Shown here piece by piece: positions 24,812-40,044 of a stretch of 44,030 nt of DNA (within the stretch, counting starts at the first letter, position 1; the number at the start of each line of letters is the position of its first letter). This DNA is from Trueperaceae bacterium (GTDB lineage Bacteria; Deinococcota; Deinococci; Deinococcales; Trueperaceae). The stretch spans positions 1,790,465-1,834,494 of the forward strand of contig CP070651.1 of the NCBI GenBank assembly GCA_020354625.1, written 5' to 3'. The notes under the pieces were generated by a model. The model saw only the letters and a program-made list of their open reading frames with translations, was not told where the DNA came from and ran no database searches. Position numbers and translations under genes: made by a program.

Positions 24812-25156
24812 TCAGTTTTTCAGCGGGCTGGGGGCTACGTCTGTTTCAACCCCCGCTTCACCAGCCGCGCTGGTCAAGGTTTCCTGGGCCTGGGCCGCGG
24901 CTTGCTCCAGGATCTGCTTGTGTTCGTATTCGGCCTCGGCCATGAGGTCCTCGAGGTTCTCCTGCAGTAAAGCAGCTTGAGTACGAACCTCGTCTGCTAC
25001 ATCAAAAGCACCGCGCACGGCCCCGACCAACAGAGGGCGCATCGACCTCCGCACAGCCGGAACCAGGACCATGGCCCCGAGCGTTACGCCGGCCCCCATC
25101 AAGAATCCCCGGGCGAAGCTGTGGCGCAGGGCCAGGGCCAATCTGCTCGTCGTCAT
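24812..25156 (-). CDS. Small membrane-associated protein (DUF5132/YtxH-like)
   Basis: 114 residues. One hydrophobic segment (SFARGFLMGAGVTLGAMVLVPAV) is followed by RRSMRPLLVGAVRGAFDVADEVRTQAALLQENLEDLMAEAEYEHKQILEQA, an amphipathic helical and coiled-coil-like stretch. The pattern GAGVTLGAMVLVPAVRRSMRPLLVGAVRG resembles the protein at 26551-26838 (GLAGAAVLLTLPASRRMLRKALVSSLATG), so the two are probably paralogues. AAGGAGG lies 9 nt before the ATG. It is 14 bp after the HMA-like gene in one operon. Similar small proteins accompany heavy-metal P-type ATPase genes in some bacteria; function unknown. Confidence 0.72.
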   Translation of the reverse strand: MTTSRLALALRHSFARGFLMGAGVTLGAMVLVPAVRRSMRPLLVGAVRGAFDVADEVRTQAALLQENLEDLMAEAEYEHKQILEQAAAQAQETLTSAAGEAGVETDVAPSPLKN

Positions 25157-25170
25157 CTCACCGCTCCTCC

Positions 25171-26259
25171 TTACTCCCTTTCAAGCTCTGTCTCGTAGCT
25201 CTCTGATGTCACGGAGACCTCTCTGTCCCCACGTCTACCCGCACGGTCCAGAGCCGGCAGAATCACACCGTCGGAGCCGGGCATACCCGCGCCTATCCGC
25301 TCGGCTCGAGCGACCAACACCAGGGTCCACACCTTTCGCAAGATCGAGATCGTCTGCGGGTCCACCCACCGTAGCAAGGCAACCAACATACCTATCTGAG
25401 CGAACCTCTCGGCCCAAGCGAGGCTCTGCTCTTCGAGGTGGAGCGCCTGGGCAACACGTTCCTCAGAACCTCTCCACGCAGCGTTGTGGGCAGCCAGGAC
25501 CCCGGTGCGCGCAGCGACCGGATTGGCAGCCAATAACACGCCGAGCCCCGGTGCGTGATGGCGGCTGATCAGCCAGCTGAGCGCAGCCGTGCTGAAGGCT
25601 GTGCTGGTGATACGCCTCTGGTATGCGTCGAGACGCTGTTGGGCTGCCGGTAAGGCAGGTGGTGGCGAGACGCCCCGCTCGTGCAGCGATCTCACAACGG
25701 CACTCTCGAACCTTGTGGTGGCGATGGCCGCGCTGCTCGCCAGACCGACCAGGTCCTCTCGAAGAGCATAGACGCCCGTTCCCGCAACGGAGGCGATGTC
25801 GCCGAGTCCGGCAGCCAGATGTCGGCGTTTCCCAAAAAGCGGTAGCGACGGGAGGTAACCCGAGAGAATGGTGAGAAGGCTCGAGAGCAGAAACAGGCTA
25901 TAGAACCCCGAAAAGAGCGAGGGGCCGGCCCAGAGGCGCTTGACGCAGAGTGCCACGAGCATGGTGCTAGGCGTCAAGGTGCGCCAGGCCAGGTTGCCAA
26001 CTTCGGCGCCGGGTTTTTCGGGCACCACAGCCCGAAGCTCGTTCAGGCGCACGGCGAGCGCTTCGCTCATCTGCGTATCGGGGTCACACTCGATCAGGAC
26101 CCGGCCCGAGCACGCATTGGCTCGAACCGAACGAACCTCGGGAAGCTCTAGCAGACCCGCATTTAGCCTCGCCGCCAACACTGGGTTGCCGCACAGACCG
26201 GGCACCGCGAGGCGAAACCGTCCCGGAAGCCGATGAACCATACGTACATCCGAAGTCAT
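25171..26259 (-). CDS. HMA-like domain protein without ATPase core
   Basis: 362 residues. The N-terminal ~75 residues (VRMVHRLPGRFRLAVPGLCGNPVLAARLNAGLLELPEVRSVRANACSGRVLIECDP) match the HMA-like domain at the start of CtpC-type heavy-metal ATPases, which lacks the CXXC metal site. Two or three hydrophobic segments follow (LFSGFYSLFLLSSLLTILSGYL), then helical parts. No P-type actuator, DKTGT or GDGxND motif is present, so it is not a pump, perhaps a decayed or regulatory relative. The start is ATG 26259; an open extension to 26385 has no Shine-Dalgarno. It heads the operon ending in GerW, and box D lies upstream. Confidence 0.72.
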   Translation of the reverse strand: MTSDVRMVHRLPGRFRLAVPGLCGNPVLAARLNAGLLELPEVRSVRANACSGRVLIECDPDTQMSEALAVRLNELRAVVPEKPGAEVGNLAWRTLTPSTMLVALCVKRLWAGPSLFSGFYSLFLLSSLLTILSGYLPSLPLFGKRRHLAAGLGDIASVAGTGVYALREDLVGLASSAAIATTRFESAVVRSLHERGVSPPPALPAAQQRLDAYQRRITSTAFSTAALSWLISRHHAPGLGVLLAANPVAARTGVLAAHNAAWRGSEERVAQALHLEEQSLAWAERFAQIGMLVALLRWVDPQTISILRKVWTLVLVARAERIGAGMPGSDGVILPALDRAGRRGDREVSVTSESYETELERE

Positions 26260-26377
26260 CGAGAGATCTCCATTAGGAAGAACCGGGGCCGGATACATTC
26301 CCTCTGTCAAGAGACCACATAACACCCCCCGGCTACTCTTCTCTCTTGAGTCTAGGTCGAGACCCAGGCATCTCGGT

Positions 26378-26392
26378 AGAGTCATTTGTCCT
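26378..26392 (-). promoter_or_regulatory. DosR-like box D (HMA/GerW operon)
   Basis: On the minus strand it reads AGGACAAATGACTCT. A -10-like TAGACT (26349-26354, minus) lies 33.5 bp from the centre, facing the HMA-like gene. It partly overlaps a separate 16-bp dyad TTGTCC-N4-GGACAA (26386-26401). Confidence 0.5.
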
Positions 26393-26424
26393 TGGGGACA
26401 ACCGGTTAAAAAGGTCTACGAACC

Positions 26425-26439
26425 GGGACAAATTGCCCT
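26425..26439 (+). promoter_or_regulatory. DosR-like box C (26551 gene)
   Basis: GGGACAAATTGCCCT. A good -10, TATACT (26462-26467), lies 32.5 bp from the centre and faces the 95-residue gene. It is divergent from box D, 47 bp away centre to centre. Confidence 0.6.
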
Positions 26440-26550
26440 TATATCTCCACACGAGGCTCCTTATACTGAATATCGTCTGTACGGTGAGACGCTCCGGCAA
26501 CAGAGTGGGCGTCTGGTCTTACATATTCGGTCATGTTAGGTCGGTGATGC

Positions 26551-26838
26551 ATGATGAAAGAGATCGAATTGGCAGGACATGAACTCAAAGCCGGCAACCT
26601 CCTCACGGGCCGGACGTTATGGGGGCTCGGGCTCGCAGGTGCGGCCGTACTGTTGACACTACCCGCTTCGCGCCGCATGCTCCGCAAGGCGCTGGTCAGC
26701 AGCCTGGCAACCGGAATGGTCGCCCGCGATCAAGTCCAAAAACTAGGACAGGAGTGGAAGGAGATCGTCGCCGAGGCCCGCAACCGGCGAGAGATCACCA
26801 CCGAGGTGGAGGCGACGCAACCGAGCACGCCGAGTTGA
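26551..26838 (+). CDS. Small membrane-associated protein (DUF5132/YtxH-like paralogue)
   Basis: 95 residues with one hydrophobic segment (TLWGLGLAGAAVLLTLPA) then SRRMLRKALVSSLATGMVARDQVQKLGQEWKEIVAEARNRREI, a positively charged amphipathic helix. The layout matches the 114-residue protein across the divergent promoter. The start is ATG 26551 or the adjacent ATG 26554, with only a weak Shine-Dalgarno. DosR-like box C and a TATACT -10 sit upstream. Function unknown; its promoter suggests induction together with the divergent operon. Confidence 0.7.
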   Translation: MMKEIELAGHELKAGNLLTGRTLWGLGLAGAAVLLTLPASRRMLRKALVSSLATGMVARDQVQKLGQEWKEIVAEARNRREITTEVEATQPSTPS

Positions 26839-26935: not shown

Positions 26936-27107
26936 GTGCCTGCCAACCGACGCCCCACCTCTTCTCTTGCTCGTCGAGGGCAGCGGGGCGCGCTACGATC
27001 TTGGCGCAAAGGAGAAGGCTCAGATATGCTTGGCGTGGGATCGGCTTCCCGTGGCGTGCCGAGAGAAACTTGCGATGGACGATCCCCGCAGCAAGTAGGA
27101 GAGTGCT

Positions 27108-27887
27108 ATGGGTGACGAGAAAGAGGACGGTCGAGAGAAGTCGGGATCTTTCCCGATACCGGGAAGGGGTTGGAGGGAGATCTCACCAGCGAACCGTTAC
27201 GCCGCACCGGTAGGGGACGAAACCGACCCCCTACGCAAACCGGTGGGTGAACCATCAAGGTCGCAGAGGTACTTCCATGCCGGGAACGATGTCATCACAG
27301 ATCACCCCTGGGCGCGGGGGGTGACGTTCAACGTGGCCGGCGATTACCGCTACCTCTCCGATGGCTACTACGCCTCGCTCGAGGCAGAGTTGCGTGGCTG
27401 GCACATCCATCCCACCACCTCGGAAGCGTTGGACGGCTACATCGCACCGATCGCCGCGGAAAAGGCGGCCCGGGGGGGGCTGGCGGTTCCCGAAAGCAGT
27501 ATCGTGCTCGACACCGCAACCCTACCCGCTCTCGTCCACCCCGTCAACCCGTTCTCGCACCACCCCGAACTGATCTACTCCCAAGCAGAGGTACTCACTA
27601 AGCTCGGCACCTTGACGAGGGTCGGCAAGTACGTCGCTTTTTGCCAACACCTTCCAGAGTCCTTCGAAATCAAGGTGCTCCCCTGCATCTTTGGCCGTAC
27701 CCCGGACTCGACATTCGAACACTTGCTACAGCGCAGCTTCGATGTCTTCAAGCTCCCGTTGATGAGAGTGAGGTTGATCGACACCGACAAGACCACTCTC
27801 TTTTCAGGTATCGAGCCGCTGCCGCTCGAGCAACTCACCTCCGCAGAACTCGCTCTTGTAGAAGAGCTGGGCACGTGGCAGACCTAG
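27108..27887 (+). CDS. RimK-like ATP-grasp N-terminal (RLAN) domain protein
   Basis: 259 residues. After a disordered start (about 1-60), TFNVAGDYRYLSDGYYASLEAELRGWHIHPTTSEALDGYIAP matches the core of the RLAN domain, which normally forms the N-terminal half of RimK-family amidoligases. A second conserved-looking part (FEIKVLPCIFGRTPDSTFEHLLQRSFDVFKLPLMRVRLI) follows. Here the ATP-grasp part is in a separate gene that overlaps this one by 13 bp in another frame. AGGAGAG lies 4 nt before the ATG. It presumably works with the ATP-grasp protein in attaching an amino acid or amine to a carboxylate; substrate unknown. Confidence 0.8.
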   Translation: MGDEKEDGREKSGSFPIPGRGWREISPANRYAAPVGDETDPLRKPVGEPSRSQRYFHAGNDVITDHPWARGVTFNVAGDYRYLSDGYYASLEAELRGWHIHPTTSEALDGYIAPIAAEKAARGGLAVPESSIVLDTATLPALVHPVNPFSHHPELIYSQAEVLTKLGTLTRVGKYVAFCQHLPESFEIKVLPCIFGRTPDSTFEHLLQRSFDVFKLPLMRVRLIDTDKTTLFSGIEPLPLEQLTSAELALVEELGTWQT

Positions 27888-28753
27888 CGATCTTCACCGA
27901 CCGAAGAACGGTGCGCTCTGCTGACGAACTGACGGCCCTGATCCGCTTCCGGAAGGCCGCCTTCGATGGCGGGCACAAGCTGGATCTCCTGTTTTACACC
28001 GAACTCAGCTACCTCTCAAACTACCAGGGAATCCTGATTCGCACCCTCACCGATCCCCTCAATACCGCCTACGTGGTGGCTAAGTGGGCGGAGATCTATG
28101 GCATCCGTGTCCTGGACACACCGGACAGCATTCGAATCTGCTGCGACAAGGTCAACATGTACGGCCGTCTCATGAAGGCGCGCGTACCGATTCCCCAAAC
28201 GGCCTTTTTGGGCAAGGAGGACCTCGTGCCAGCGAGGGCCGAAGCGCTGTTCGATGCCTGGGGCTTTCCACTCATCTTGAAGGCCCCGAACTCGAGCTTT
28301 TCGGCCTATGTCGAAAAGGTGGCTACCCCGCACGAATTCGTCAGCATCGGCAGGCGCTTTTTTCGGAGGGCGGATCGAATCGTGGTGCAGGGCTTCGTGA
28401 AGAGCAGCTTCGACTGGCGCGTCATCACCCTAGGACAAGACGTCCTCGCCGTGGTCAAGTACGTCTTTGCCCCAGACCGTTGGAAAACCGAGCAGCGCTC
28501 GGAAAGCGGAGAGTGGGCGACCGTGGTCGCCGTCGCAGTCGAGGAGGCGGATCAGGGGTTGCTCGAGCTGGCCCGAGCAGCAGCCGCAGCGATGGGTAAT
28601 AGCCTCTACGGGATCGATATCAAAGAGGTCGAAGGAGGCTACCTGGTGATCGAGGTCAACGACAACCCCACCATCGCAGCTGGACAGGAAGATCGAGCCA
28701 ACCCGGATATCTACGAGAGGATCGTTGCCTACCTTGCCAGCGAGGTGGGGTGA
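27875..28753 (+). CDS. RimK-type ATP-grasp ligase, catalytic part
   Basis: 292 residues from GTG 27875. The RimK fold is clear: a pre-ATP-grasp part ending YGIRVLDTPDSIRICCDKVNMYGRLMKARVPIPQTAFL, the ATP-binding FPLILKAPNSSFSAYVEKV and IVVQGFVKSSFDWRVITLGQDVLAVVKYV, and the Mg2+ site IDIKEVEGGYLVIEVNDNPTI. The enzyme should form an amide bond through an acyl-phosphate, as RimK, LysX and CofF do. Usual homologues are ~490-residue fusions with the RLAN domain; here the two parts are split with a 13-bp overlap. Its 3' end overlaps the convergent GNAT-C39 gene by 25 bp. Confidence 0.87.
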   Translation: MADLAIFTDRRTVRSADELTALIRFRKAAFDGGHKLDLLFYTELSYLSNYQGILIRTLTDPLNTAYVVAKWAEIYGIRVLDTPDSIRICCDKVNMYGRLMKARVPIPQTAFLGKEDLVPARAEALFDAWGFPLILKAPNSSFSAYVEKVATPHEFVSIGRRFFRRADRIVVQGFVKSSFDWRVITLGQDVLAVVKYVFAPDRWKTEQRSESGEWATVVAVAVEEADQGLLELARAAAAAMGNSLYGIDIKEVEGGYLVIEVNDNPTIAAGQEDRANPDIYERIVAYLASEVG

Positions 28754-29847
28754 GCAAGGCGTTCGAGAACCACCATATACCGGTGGCGCGCCTTACCGAA
28801 GCGGCTCGACTGTTCGAACGACTCGGCATTGAGCGGCAAATTGAGACTGTCGGCACGATCGGTCCCGGGAGGAATCCACGGGTCGTGCAGGTAGAGGTGG
28901 GAGGAATCGTAACCCGTGACCACCACCCAATGGGGTTGTTTTTCGCCGTAGAGGCGGTAGCCGCTCACCAGCAGCAGCGGGATAGCCCCTCGGCTCAGCC
29001 GAGCCACCACATCGTCGAAGGTGAAGTTCTGGATTTCGACTGCGCCGCCCAGGTTTTGAAGGTCCTCGAGAAACCTCTCATGGCAAAGGGAAATCACATC
29101 TTTCTTTTCAGGGCGGCGGACCGAATCGAGGAACGGCACGGCGGCATCGCGGCTGACCACCGTCGCCCCGAAGCCGCGCCGCAACGCAGCGACCGCCAAA
29201 CCGTAGGGGCTACAGCCACCGTGCCCGGAGAGCATGAAGATGGTCGTCGCCTCGCGCCACAGCTCGAGTTCGAGGTCCCGTCCGAACGCGGCATCGTATC
29301 CCAGCGACCGCAGCGCCATCATGAGGGCGGCCGGGCCGCAGGTGAAGTCGAGGGATTGCGCATAGAAGGGAACTTCAACGAGGTGGGCGGGTTCGCCCTT
29401 GAGCTGTTTCCTCAAGCGCAAGGCGGAACTGTGATCTTCATAGTAATCCTTGGTAAGACCCATCAAAACGTACTCGTGACGCTGGTAGAGCGCCAAGGCA
29501 GCAGCGTTGTCCTCGCGTACTTCGAGCCTCATGGTAAAACAGCCCCGCTTCACGGCCGCCTGTTCCGCCGCTGCCAACAGCGAGCTGCCGATGCCTCGGT
29601 TCCTCTCGTGAGGATCGACCACGAGCGAGTAGAGCCGCGCCCCGTGAAACCCTCGCCGATAAAGAACCACGGCGTCGCCCACGATGGTTCCCTCCCGCTC
29701 GGCGACCAGAATGTCGGCGTTGGCCTTCTCCAGCAGATAGTACCAGTTGTCGGCCGTGATACGGTCGCTTGAGAAGGTTCTCTCCAAGCGGTCGAGCGCC
29801 TCGATATCAGCGGCTTTGGCCCAGCGTATCGACAAGATCGCATTCAT
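28729..29847 (-). CDS. GNAT acetyltransferase-C39-like peptidase fusion
   Basis: 372 residues. N-terminal GNAT domain (about 5-140) with the acetyl-CoA loop VVDPHERNRGIGSSLL (about 76-91) and ALYQRHEY. The C-terminal C39-like papain-fold domain has Cys170 (DFTCGPAALMMAL), His306 (QPHWVVVTGYD) and Asp322 (YLHDPW). This fusion is known as a neighbour of RLAN/RimK amidoligases, a context described by comparative genomics as peptide or small-molecule modification systems. Start ATG 29847 is chosen because GGAG lies 5 nt upstream; the frame continues to 29886. It is convergent with, and overlaps, the ATP-grasp gene, which fits opposing or paired functions (ligation versus cleavage). Confidence 0.88.
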   Translation of the reverse strand: MNAILSIRWAKAADIEALDRLERTFSSDRITADNWYYLLEKANADILVAEREGTIVGDAVVLYRRGFHGARLYSLVVDPHERNRGIGSSLLAAAEQAAVKRGCFTMRLEVREDNAAALALYQRHEYVLMGLTKDYYEDHSSALRLRKQLKGEPAHLVEVPFYAQSLDFTCGPAALMMALRSLGYDAAFGRDLELELWREATTIFMLSGHGGCSPYGLAVAALRRGFGATVVSRDAAVPFLDSVRRPEKKDVISLCHERFLEDLQNLGGAVEIQNFTFDDVVARLSRGAIPLLLVSGYRLYGEKQPHWVVVTGYDSSHLYLHDPWIPPGTDRADSLNLPLNAESFEQSSRFGKARHRYMVVLERLAHPTSLAR

Positions 29848-32269: not shown

Positions 32270-33805
32270 TCATCCCCGCAACGCCCTCCCCGGACGCGCG
32301 CCGGTGATCTTGCCGTCTTCGACGGCGAGCTCGCCGTTGACGAAAACGTAGGAGACGCCTTCGGCCAGCCGGCGGCTGTCTTCGTAGGTCGCGGTGTCGG
32401 TAACCGTTTCGGGGTCGAACACCGTGATGTCCGCAGCCATGCCGGGCCGCAACAACCCCCGGTCTGAAAGCCCGAAGCGGGTTGCGGGGGCAGCGGTCAT
32501 ATGGCGGATCATCTCCTCGAGGGTCAGGATGTTCTGCTCGCGCACGTAACGACCCAAAAAGCGGGCGAAGGCTCCCCAGCCGCGCGGGTGCGGCCGGCCG
32601 CCGACGTAGATGCCGTCGCTGCCCACCATGTGTGCCGGGTGGCGGGTCACAGCGATCAGGTCCTCTTCGCCGCGCCAGCGCTGGAACAGCACTACACCGA
32701 CCGCCATCTCCTCACCGATGAGCAGTTCACCGATGAACTCGGCCCGCGAGTGCCCGGACAGCTCGGCGGCCTCGGCGACATTCATACCGACGAAGCGCTG
32801 ATGCTCGGGCCTGCGCAAGTTGGCAAGCACCATGTCTTCGAAGCTGTAGGGGGAGCTCGAAACCCAGGCTTCGAGGGCTCGCTTGCCCTCGGGCCGGCGC
32901 AGCTTCTCCACCATTTGGGCGGTCGTACCGAAGTGGAGGTCCCGCGGCAAAACCAGCATCAACACCGTGCTCCCGGCCAGGTAGGGGTAGCCGTCGAAGG
33001 TTACCTCGATCCCGCGGTCTCGGCCCCGGTCGATCTCGGCCAGCATGGCGGCCTTGCAATTGAAGTGCGAGATGTGTACGGGCAGGCCGGCCTCTTCCCC
33101 GACACGCAGCGTCTCCTCGATGGCCGCTGTGGCACCATCGACATAGTCACGCATGTGGGTCACGAAAACACCACCGGGTGCAGCAGGCCGGGCGATTTCG
33201 ATCAGCTCATCGGTGCCGGCATGCAGACACGGCAGGTAGTCGAGGCCGGTCGACACACCGATCGCCCCCTGCTCGAGCCCACGCTCGATCAAGAGTTGCA
33301 TGCGGCGTATCTCATTCGGGTCGGGGGCACGCGACACATGCCCCATCACAGCGGCGCGCACCGTACCGTGCGGCACCAGGTAGGCCACGTTCAGAGCCGA
33401 CGCGCCGTCGAAACGGCTCAGGAACTCGTCCACCGACTCCCAATCGAATGCCAGGCCCACACCGCCGTTGATCGCCGCAAAGTAGCGTTCCAAGAAGGGA
33501 CGGGTCTCGGACGTCAGCGGCGCGTACGAGACACCGTCTTGACCGATGATATGGGTGGTAACGCCCTGCACCAGGGAGCCGTCGCAGTGGCCGCCCTCGA
33601 GGAGGGTCAGGTCGGAGTGAAGGTGGGCGTCGATGAAGCCCGGCGCTACGACCTGGTCCCCTACCTCGAGCACCCGGCGGGCGGTGGCCCCCTCGAGCCG
33701 GCCGACCGCTCCGATCTCACCACCCTGAATCCCGACATCGGCCCGGTACCAGGGAGTCCCCGTGCCGTCGACGACCCGTCCACCTCGAATCAGAACATCG
33801 AACAC
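32270..33805 (-). CDS. D-aminoacylase / N-acyl-D-amino-acid deacylase family amidohydrolase
   Basis: 511 residues, typical for the family. N-terminal MFDVLIRGGRVVDGTGTPWYRADVGIQGGEIGAVG leads to the metal-binding VVAPGFIDAHLHSDLTLLEGG. Further landmarks are LVQGVTTHIIGQDG, GVSTGLDYLPC, VTHMRDYVDGATAAIEE, HISHFNCKA, and the catalytic-Asp segment ARHPAHMVGSDGIYVGG (here TRHPAHMVGSDG). It should release fatty or acetyl groups from N-acyl-D-amino acids in the cytoplasm. GTG start with AGAGGTGG upstream. It lies 103 bp after the D-threonine-aldolase-like gene in the same direction, suggesting a shared D-amino-acid pathway. Confidence 0.9.
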   Translation of the reverse strand: MFDVLIRGGRVVDGTGTPWYRADVGIQGGEIGAVGRLEGATARRVLEVGDQVVAPGFIDAHLHSDLTLLEGGHCDGSLVQGVTTHIIGQDGVSYAPLTSETRPFLERYFAAINGGVGLAFDWESVDEFLSRFDGASALNVAYLVPHGTVRAAVMGHVSRAPDPNEIRRMQLLIERGLEQGAIGVSTGLDYLPCLHAGTDELIEIARPAAPGGVFVTHMRDYVDGATAAIEETLRVGEEAGLPVHISHFNCKAAMLAEIDRGRDRGIEVTFDGYPYLAGSTVLMLVLPRDLHFGTTAQMVEKLRRPEGKRALEAWVSSSPYSFEDMVLANLRRPEHQRFVGMNVAEAAELSGHSRAEFIGELLIGEEMAVGVVLFQRWRGEEDLIAVTRHPAHMVGSDGIYVGGRPHPRGWGAFARFLGRYVREQNILTLEEMIRHMTAAPATRFGLSDRGLLRPGMAADITVFDPETVTDTATYEDSRRLAEGVSYVFVNGELAVEDGKITGARPGRALRG

Positions 33806-33908
33806 CTTCCACCTCTCATAAAAGCGGGAGACTCCCCTCTATAGAACCAGGGTTCATGTGCACCAGGTAGATACGTGGGACAAACTTGACGGGCGAGGGC
33901 GAACCGCT

Positions 33909-35114
33909 CTACCAGACATGTCCGCGCGCCGCCACCGGCCACACCTCTTCGACCACACCGTCCCTGACCCCGAGCAAGACGGTCGCCAGGTTCACAGTCG
34001 GGCAGACGTGCACCGGCACCACGTCGACAACCTGACCCAGGTGCAAGTCACACCGCGCGGGATCGTATTCGACGACCCCGTGTTCTTCCGACAAAGAGGT
34101 GATCACCGCCCCGGGAAACGGTTCACGGGTCTGCCCGTCGCGGACGATCCCGTAGCCGCTAAGCCGTAAGTTGGGCAGCTTGTGCTTGGTCTCTGCCGAG
34201 AAGACCTTCGAGCCGGCATCGAGCACCGCCCGGCCAGGGTGGGGCAGGCTGGCCACCATCGTCCGCATGCTGAGGGCGCAGTCTTCGAGCCGGCAGATGC
34301 CTGGCCCCACATGGGTGCCGCCGTAGAAGATGTACTCGCCCGGTTGGACTTCGGTGATGCCCGGCGTGCGAGCCACCAGCTTGGCGCTCGGGGTGGAACC
34401 GGCCACCACCTCCTCGACCGGCACGCCTGCCGCACGAACCTGTTCGGCCAGCTCGACGAGGAGCCGTCCTTCCTCGTCGGCGGTGGCCTCGATGTCCTCG
34501 GGGCCGTAGTCCCGAGGCTCAGGACTGTAAAACCAGTCGAGCCCCCGGTAGCCGAGAATGCCGGCGAAGCGGACGCTCGGCAGCGAGGCGAGGAGCTGGG
34601 CCAGCTCGGAAACCCGTTCGAACGCGATACCGGTCCGGCCCGTCTGACCGCTCGTATCCGAAATGTTGACCTCGATATAGAGCGAGATCTCGACCCCGGC
34701 TGCCCGGCAGGCGTCTGAAATGGCCTGTGCCGCTGCAGGGTCGTCGACGAGGCAGCTCGTCTTTACCCCGCTCGCCGCCAACGAGACGAGACGGCGCAGT
34801 TTGGCCTCGCCGACGGGCTGGTAGACCACGAAGATGTCGTCGATCCCGGCCTCGGCCATCACCGAAGCCTCCCCGAGCTTGGCGGTGGCGATGCCGGCTG
34901 CCCCGTAGGCGAGCTGCCGCTTGGCGAGGGCGGGGATCTTATGCGTCTTGATGTGGGGCCGGAGCTTCACGCCATATTGGGCGACCGTCTCGGCCATGTC
35001 TTCGAGGTTGCGCTCCATGATCTCGAGGTCGACGACCCAGCAAGGGGTTTCGAGGTCCGTTACGGAGCTACCAACCCGCCAGGATGGGGGGAGGGTGGGG
35101 GGCTGTATGTTCAT
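33909..35114 (-). CDS. D-threonine aldolase/D-serine dehydratase-like PLP enzyme
   Basis: 401 residues, fold type III (alanine-racemase-like barrel). The PLP lysine is K56 in LRPHIKTHKIPALAKRQL. GILGYRGLDW, VEEVVAGSTPSAKLV and EYIFYGGTHVG line the active site. The C-terminal metal motif is H-x-C in VVPVHVCPTVNLA, which separates this family from racemases. Members cleave D-3-hydroxyamino acids or deaminate D-serine; specificity cannot be told. No Shine-Dalgarno precedes the ATG; a TATGGT hexamer 14 nt upstream could give a very short leader. It probably feeds, or is fed by, the adjacent D-aminoacylase. Confidence 0.87.
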   Translation of the reverse strand: MNIQPPTLPPSWRVGSSVTDLETPCWVVDLEIMERNLEDMAETVAQYGVKLRPHIKTHKIPALAKRQLAYGAAGIATAKLGEASVMAEAGIDDIFVVYQPVGEAKLRRLVSLAASGVKTSCLVDDPAAAQAISDACRAAGVEISLYIEVNISDTSGQTGRTGIAFERVSELAQLLASLPSVRFAGILGYRGLDWFYSPEPRDYGPEDIEATADEEGRLLVELAEQVRAAGVPVEEVVAGSTPSAKLVARTPGITEVQPGEYIFYGGTHVGPGICRLEDCALSMRTMVASLPHPGRAVLDAGSKVFSAETKHKLPNLRLSGYGIVRDGQTREPFPGAVITSLSEEHGVVEYDPARCDLHLGQVVDVVPVHVCPTVNLATVLLGVRDGVVEEVWPVAARGHVW

Positions 35115-38541: not shown

Positions 38542-40044
38542 ATGAAAAAAACCCTTCGTAGAACGGCCTTCAAGCTCTTCAGCGCCGCGCTCGTCAGCCT
38601 GGTGCTGACGCTGGGCGGCCTGTCGCTGGCACAAGGCGGCGGTGTGCTGCAGATCGGTGTTAACGGCGACATCGACAACTTCGACCCCGCCTTCAACCAA
38701 CTGATCCAGTACTCGGCCACTATCGGCGGCACCGTATTCAACGCCCTGGTGAGCCTGGACGAGAACATGAATATCGTCCCCGGCCTGGCCGAGTCCTGGG
38801 AGCAAGTCGACGACACCACCTGGGTTTTCAACCTGCGCCAGGGGGTCACCTTCCACAACGGTGACGCCTTCAGCGTAGCGGACGTTCTCCACACCTTCGA
38901 CCGCACCCTCGAGCAGGGACTGATCTTCGCCAACAAGCTCGAGCCGATCGCCGAGGCAGAGGCCGTGGACGACCACACCCTTAGATTGACGCTCGAGTTT
39001 CCGGTGGCCACATTGCTCGACGACCTCACCCTGGTGGCGATCACCCCCCAAGGTGTGACCGACGAGGACCTGAAGCAGAACCCGGTCGGCACCGGCCCGT
39101 TCCGCTTCGTCAGCTGGACGCCCAACGAGACGACCGTGCTCGAGCGAAACCCGGACTACTGGGAAGCGGGCAAGCCTGCGCTCGACGGCATTACCCTGCG
39201 GGTGCTCGGTGACGCAGCCACGCGGATCGCCAACCTGCTCTCAGGCGAAGTCGACGCGCTCTACGACGTCCCCGTCGCCGACGCACAAGCCGTCGCCGGC
39301 GACCCCAACGTAGTGTTCCAACAGCCGAGCGCCAGTGGCAGCCTCTTCTTGATCGAGCTCGGCATAGCCAACAACGAAGCGCTACAAGACCAGCGCGTAC
39401 GCCGCGCCCTGGCCCACGCCCTCGACAAGGAGACGATCCAGCAGGTGGCCTACTTCGGCCAGGGTGAGATCATCTGTTCGCCGCTACCGGCCTTCTCCTG
39501 GGCCTACGAAGCGCAGGACTGCCCCGCCTTCGACCTCGAGCAGGCCGCGGCGCTCCTCGCTGAGGCCGGTCACAGCGACCTCGAGCTCGGCATCGAAGTG
39601 ATCAGCGGCGTCAAGGTGATGGAAGACATCGCCACCATCTGGCAGGCGAGCCTGGCGGAGATCGGCGTGACCCTAAACGTCAACAGCACCGCGGTGAGTA
39701 TCTGGCTCGACCGCTACATCGGCAAGACCTACGATATGACCACCAACTGGTTCAACCTGTCAGCCGATCCCAACTCCATGTTCGATATCATCTACAAGCC
39801 GCTACTCGACAACGTATACGACAACGAGCCGATGCGCGCCAAGATCCTCGAGGCCGCCTCGCTCAGCGACCAGTCCGCCCGCACCGAGATCTACCAGGAG
39901 CTGCAGCGCGAAACGGTCGAGACCATTGCGCCTTTGATCGTAGTGCAGTCCCAGCCGCTCCTGGCGCTGACCTCGAGCTCGGTCGAGGGCTGGAAAATGA
40001 ACGGCAAGAACCTGCTCCTTCTCAACGACGTCACGGTGGAGTAA
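38542..40044 (+). CDS. Peptide-type ABC transporter substrate-binding protein (SBP family 5)
   Basis: 500 residues. Signal peptide at 1-31 (KKTLRRTAFKLFSAALVSLVLTLGGLSLAQ). The family 5 pattern follows: GVNGDIDNFDPAFNQLIQYSATIGGTVFNALVSLDENMNIVPGLAESWEQVDDTTWVFNLRQGVTFHNGDAFSVADVLHTFDR, NPVGTGPFRFVSW and ERNPDYWEAGKPALDGI. It binds a peptide, opine, nickel chelate or glycoside outside the membrane and hands it to the two permeases downstream. GGGAGG lies 7 nt before the ATG. Two hairpins follow its stop, as is common where the binding protein must be made in excess. Confidence 0.93.
   Translation: MKKTLRRTAFKLFSAALVSLVLTLGGLSLAQGGGVLQIGVNGDIDNFDPAFNQLIQYSATIGGTVFNALVSLDENMNIVPGLAESWEQVDDTTWVFNLRQGVTFHNGDAFSVADVLHTFDRTLEQGLIFANKLEPIAEAEAVDDHTLRLTLEFPVATLLDDLTLVAITPQGVTDEDLKQNPVGTGPFRFVSWTPNETTVLERNPDYWEAGKPALDGITLRVLGDAATRIANLLSGEVDALYDVPVADAQAVAGDPNVVFQQPSASGSLFLIELGIANNEALQDQRVRRALAHALDKETIQQVAYFGQGEIICSPLPAFSWAYEAQDCPAFDLEQAAALLAEAGHSDLELGIEVISGVKVMEDIATIWQASLAEIGVTLNVNSTAVSIWLDRYIGKTYDMTTNWFNLSADPNSMFDIIYKPLLDNVYDNEPMRAKILEAASLSDQSARTEIYQELQRETVETIAPLIVVQSQPLLALTSSSVEGWKMNGKNLLLLNDVTVE

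Follow-up and report, generated by a model that had tools for sequence, protein, structure and literature searches.

Within the window, a 44,030-nucleotide stretch of DNA from a Trueperaceae bacterium, an RLAN protein and a RimK/LysX-type ATP-grasp ligase are encoded by two overlapping genes (A and B, respectively), and we think it reasonably probable that together they form a heteromeric amide-bond ligase of duplication origin, in which an active enzyme is paired with a pseudo-enzyme and which works with a capping partner towards an N-capped product. RLAN/RimK-like ATP-grasp amidoligase systems (PF14401) with GNAT–papain-like peptidase, GCS2 or metal-cluster protein neighbours were reportedly described by Iyer et al. 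in 2009, and we take the RLAN/ATP-grasp/GNAT-peptidase context to be already known from there and from the Pfam entry. What appears to be new, judged against the open-licence literature, is (i) a large subfamily of split pairs whose overlap is fixed, (ii) the predicted ATP-grasp nature of RLAN, and (iii) a GNAT-or-GCS2 pattern of partner genes with triple fusions.

The locus and the proposed ligase

The locus comprises the following features:

27097–27101, + strand: ribosome-binding site AGGAG upstream of the RLAN open reading frame (direct sequence reading)
27108–27887, + strand: gene A, RLAN protein of 259 amino acids (open reading frame; PF14401, 2e-17; stop codon TAG at 27885–27887)
27321–27887, + strand: conserved RLAN core of gene A with a predicted degenerate ATP-grasp fold (Foldseek, VIA-align, hhalign)
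27875–27887, + strand: 13-nt overlap of the gene A stop and the gene B start, GTGGCAGACCTAG, of the length found in 35 of 48 split loci
27875–28753, + strand: gene B, RimK/LysX-type ATP-grasp ligase of 292 amino acids (start codon GTG at 27875; PF08443, 1.8e-11)
28729–28753, both strands: 25-nt convergent overlap of the 3′ ends of genes B and C (open reading frame coordinates)
28729–29847, − strand: gene C, GNAT acetyltransferase fused to a C39-like (DUF3335) cysteine peptidase (start codon ATG at 29847; PF00583, 8e-18; PF11814, 8.6e-73)
28765–29373, − strand: C39-like DUF3335 peptidase domain of gene C, optional in the family (PF11814)
29476–29769, − strand: GNAT domain of gene C, RimI/Ard1-like (profile matches)

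The open reading frame coordinates bear out exactly what a sequence-only reading of this DNA had described: two genes that overlap by 13 bp in different frames (gene B is in the −1 frame relative to gene A), and a convergent GNAT–peptidase gene with a 25-bp 3′ overlap. All domain assignments in the three genes exceed the Pfam cut-offs, with 63.7 bits for gene A against PF14401 (gathering score 25), 44.5 bits for gene B against PF08443 (RimK; cut-off 21) and 244.6 bits for gene C against PF11814/DUF3335 (cut-off 25). The whole genome (4.29 Mb, a single contig) contains one RLAN and one DUF3335. The start codon of gene A is uncertain because residues 1–70 (27108–27320) have no counterpart in the alignment of relatives and are disordered in the AF2 model; despite this unmatched extension, the AGGAG ahead of ATG 27108 is a good ribosome-binding site. 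Translation may in fact begin at GTG 27321.

In the family alignments, all invariant residues of genes A, B and C are kept in the window copies, and the few near-invariant positions that differ lie outside the catalytic motifs. The catalytic residues of gene B are intact, with K136, D248, E260, N262 and N264, invariant across the family, all retained; gene C keeps the Cys of FTCGP and the His of PHWV. The window copies diverge faster than their relatives: the end branch of gene B in the tree is 0.65 (median 0.21), and gene A is 42–47% identical to kin that are 59–69% identical among themselves.

Gene B shares the ATP-grasp fold and catalytic residues with LysX/ArgX and RimK, its best solved relatives being 3vpb, 7qyr and 1uc8. 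It scores below the NCBIfam cut-offs of both TIGR00768 (RimK alpha-L-glutamate ligase; 86.4 bits, cut-off 143.4) and TIGR02144 (LysX; 72.8 bits, cut-off 275.6). The window differs from these systems by its second, predictedly degenerate subunit, and no LysW or ribosomal protein substrate was noticed near the pair. Phage relatives of gene B are limited to two distant matches in the Yersinia phages LC779065 and MW570730, where an ATP-grasp-like sequence 25% identical to gene B is labelled 'structural protein'.

We infer the heteromer, the order of steps and the product as follows. The A/B pair, probably derived from a tandem duplication, would be co-translated as the subunits of one amide-bond ligase. 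B would be the working enzyme, using ATP to activate a carboxylate that it then couples to an amine, a chemistry established for the ATP-grasp superfamily. A, which appears to lack conserved catalytic acids, would be non-catalytic, binding B or the substrate of B and serving for structure, substrate binding or regulation. The window lineage would have kept two translationally coupled genes, and the other clade would have fused them with erosion of A. An N-terminal cap would come from a second enzyme: in the window and most other bacteria of the split form this may be a GNAT that transfers an acyl group from acyl-CoA, and in flavobacteria and most archaea it may be GCS2, which would add a gamma-glutamyl group. 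With a RimI/Ard1-like GNAT, acetylation would be at an N-terminus or an amino group. What the system makes would then likely be a small peptide with an N-terminal cap, or else a short peptide tag on a protein. As the split form consists of two small proteins, these can be expressed and assayed separately.

Partner genes and the candidate product

We compared 48 split loci, the window included. A GNAT, with or without a C39 domain, adjoins gene B in 45 of 47 bacterial split loci. The C39 peptidase is an optional component of the family: DUF3335/C39 is absent genome-wide from nine genomes that carry the split pair. The opposite-strand (convergent) placement of gene C is confined to Deinococcota, the GNAT elsewhere lying downstream of B on the same strand, and neither a GNAT nor a GNAT-C39 was found beside the A/B pair in the archaeal loci examined.

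These distributions bear on what the sequence-only reading had made its core idea, namely that the convergent peptidase suggests a make/cleave pair, in which what the ligase adds, a peptide or a residue, is taken off again by the C39 peptidase. The conserved catalytic Cys and His of C39 and the continued adjacency of GNAT-C39 to the ligase in many lineages are consistent with this, as is the RimK/RimB system, where a RimK-type ligase likewise has a dedicated protease that removes the RimK additions (PMC11957791); that protease, however, is a retropepsin, and the C39 of the window is optional in its family. The make/cleave idea is weakened because the peptidase is absent from nine whole genomes with the split pair and is missing beside the archaeal pairs examined, and because the layout that suggested it is a trait of Deinococcota only. 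We therefore regard it as unlikely. For the heteromeric ligase that we prefer, the C39 domain, where present, could be an accessory enzyme that trims or recycles the product. DUF3335 has been treated among the papain-like families that include phytochelatin synthase (PMC10318531). At two Lambdaproteobacteria loci (L060:6783-7874(+) and L071:6857-7840(+)), the GNAT is followed, where C39 would otherwise stand, by about 170–190 in-frame residues that match no Pfam model.

For a small peptide substrate gene, which had been proposed as something to look for nearby, there is no conserved candidate: the search found no conserved open reading frame of 18–110 codons within 3–4 kb, and no open reading frame of at least 50 codons other than A, B and C is common to all split lineages.

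Beside the A/B pair, most archaeal loci carry GCS2 and a CxxCxxCC protein. Among loci with a fused RLAN–ATP-grasp gene, those of flavobacteria have GCS2 and an N-formylglutamate-amidohydrolase-like gene, and those of gammaproteobacteria have GNAT-C39. Three proteins of about 1000 amino acids are natural fusions of all three domains:

Planctomycetota, RLAN–ATP-grasp–GCS2 triple fusions: L245:754-3759(-), L246:2391-5357(+) and L247:3052-5976(+)

No locus had GNAT and GCS2 together in the sampled flanks, and the window genome does contain a GCS2 gene, far from the RLAN pair. Since GNAT and GCS2 both acylate amines, they may be alternative caps for the same kind of intermediate. Two known pathways offer a comparison. 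Glutathione synthesis combines GCS with an ATP-grasp enzyme, and the GCS2–ATP-grasp pairing recurs in archaea, flavobacteria and the planctomycete fusions, whereas beside the window pair a GNAT stands in place of GCS2. The NAGGN (N-acetylglutaminylglutamine) synthetase cluster combines a GNAT with an ATP-grasp enzyme, as the window does, and makes an N-acetylated dipeptide, but its domain order and sequence differ: TIGR03103 (NAGGN synthetase) matches the GNAT part of gene C only, at 34.4 bits, below its cut-off of 569. The GNAT-or-GCS2 pattern narrows the product search to N-capped small peptides and makes it a question for metabolomics.

The predicted fold of the RLAN domain

To our knowledge, no fold or role has been assigned to RLAN so far. 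Pfam files the domain as an uncharacterised alpha+beta fold, a filing that a degenerate ATP-grasp origin would explain. We found no description of the RLAN domain, of an inactive ATP-grasp or of DUF3335 function beyond one line in the open-licence literature.

An AF2 model of gene A, built from RLAN sequences alone, has pLDDT >90 for residues 71–255. Foldseek returned 296 PDB matches for it at E ≤0.001, the best at 1.2e-7, with ArgX, LysX, D-Ala-D-Ala ligase and RimK leading and with ATP-grasp-fold enzymes filling the top 50 structural matches. VIA-align superimposed the model on the RimK protein 5i47 with a Z score of 12.2 (187 residues, 4.3 Å, ~11% identity), a Z of 7–8 being typical for models without a clear match. 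By both measures (Foldseek 1.2e-7, VIA-align Z 12.2), the predicted model of gene A has an ATP-grasp fold, and the order of its strands and helices, as we read it, fits that fold.

The sequence profiles agree. The profile of split RLAN aligned collinearly with that of gene B in hhalign (P 9.3e-5, or 2.1e-5 with larger sets), while the controls (C vs B, A vs C and reversed A) gave P 0.07–0.12, and none of 400 column shuffles scored above 33.2, against 41 for the true alignment. By eye, 'YYASLEAELRGWHIHPTTSEALD...AVPE' of A matches 'AYVVAKWAEIYGIRVLDTPDSI...PIPQT' of B. The metal-ligand strands of gene B are YGIDIKE and IEVNDNP; at the matching strands, paired by secondary-structure order and not by residue-level structural alignment, the RLAN columns are R/K, A/S or mixed, with no conserved acids. 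Given the matching fold and profile and the apparent loss of conserved catalytic acids, we consider a degenerate ATP-grasp paralogue the most likely identity of RLAN, its predicted fold and ancestry being supported by computation.

RLAN could instead be an unrelated alpha/beta protein that binds a substrate or carrier and resembles ATP-grasp enzymes by convergence, as might be suggested by the low identity of only ~11% and by the failure of the Pfam ATP-grasp models to match RLAN. No RLAN homologue was found among solved structures searched by sequence. Convergence would, however, have to account for a list of 50 top structural matches made up of ATP-grasp-fold enzymes throughout and for a collinear profile alignment better than every shuffle, and we deem it improbable.

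The fuller version of the degenerate-paralogue reading, to which we give an even chance, is that RLAN is an inactivated paralogue of the very enzyme it accompanies (a pseudo-ATP-grasp), retained in both bacteria and archaea as a subunit that is obligate and that regulates the enzyme or presents its substrate, and that the series of separate, fused and triple GCS2 fusion forms records a heteromer becoming a multidomain ligase for a widespread N-capped peptide. If RLAN is a dead ATP-grasp paralogue, the two proteins would be a clear enzyme/pseudo-enzyme pair whose separate, fused and triple-fused forms can be compared, and a domain that has long been unexplained would gain an origin and a testable role.

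Spread and age of the split form

The window resembles the RLAN amidoligase systems in combining RLAN and a RimK-like ATP-grasp enzyme with a GNAT–peptidase neighbour; in those systems RLAN is usually fused to the N-terminus of the ATP-grasp enzyme, whereas in the window it is a separate, overlapping gene. The two forms of RLAN are homologous (P 1.1e-14 in a profile comparison), but split RLAN, that of the window included, has about 50 residues that fused RLAN lacks. As these residues sit in the ATP-grasp-like part, split RLAN looks closer to the ancestor. The profile of fused RLAN alone matches ATP-grasp weakly (P 0.046), and in a fold search with a model of the fused form the alignment covers the ATP-grasp half only.

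The split loci belong to nine bacterial phyla: Deinococcota, Bacillota, Planctomycetota, Bipolaricaulota, Zixibacteria, Calditrichota, Gemmatimonadota, Ignavibacteriota and Lambdaproteobacteria. In phylum samples classed as split- or fused-sized by open-frame length, RLAN was present in 24 of 111 Deinococcota genomes (split wherever both genes were readable), 28 of 247 Halobacteriota (all split-sized), 72 of 398 Pseudomonadota (all fused-sized), 31 of 247 Bacteroidota (30 of them fused-sized) and 64 of 246 Planctomycetota (both sizes present). The statement that RLAN and ATP-grasp are usually one protein thus holds for Pseudomonadota, Bacteroidota and most Planctomycetota; it fails for the sampled Deinococcota and Halobacteriota matches and for several other phyla, which make up a large, old split subfamily.

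Both forms accordingly exist among relatives, as the sequence-only reading had suggested checking, and each keeps to its own side of one branch in the gene B tree, so that a single change suffices. This was a quick tree; its root is uncertain because the outgroup branches are long, and it gives no direction to the change between split and fused. The fused forms are a separate clade, and the window therefore belongs to the old split subfamily. Of the two explanations offered earlier for the split, a functional heteromer or an ancestral state, both fared well: the split is real, the A/B pair is likely a heteromer, and the arrangement is probably ancestral.

The overlap of exactly 13 nt, present in 35 of the 48 split loci, has the junction pattern RTGG....TAG, a recurrence well above what chance would give. 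Its constant place is in keeping with two subunits whose translation is coupled. Such coupling is not obligatory, because nine Planctomycetota and Bacillota loci have gaps of 70–816 bp between A and B. The archaeal pairs are two genes as well, mostly overlapping by 4–32 nt.

A conserved overlap with gene B in the −1 frame relative to A could also suggest programmed −1 frameshifting that yields some fused RLAN–ATP-grasp protein. We rejected this reading, which is very improbable: the junctions of the split loci share no slippery heptamer, gene B begins at a start codon of its own, constant in position, and up to 816 bp separate some A/B pairs. That a sequencing or assembly error cut one fused gene in two, as a single-base error in the overlap would do and as the existence of fused relatives might invite, is practically inconceivable and was ruled out, since the same split and overlap are conserved across nine phyla in dozens of independent assemblies and the split clade stands apart from the fused one. 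Nor does the concern that the RLAN part is non-functional apply, RLAN being conserved and predicted to fold.

Elsewhere in the window, at 24812–26838, an HMA_2 domain protein is flanked by two short proteins, of which that at 24812–25156 (−) has a weak DUF5132 match and that at 26551–26838 (+) a similar make-up. A possible cluster for the catabolism of D-amino acids or peptides occupies 32270–35114 (−) and 38542–40044 (+); its genes encode an amidohydrolase similar to N-acyl-D-amino-acid deacylases, a protein resembling alanine racemase-N/D-serine dehydratase, and a solute-binding protein of family 5.
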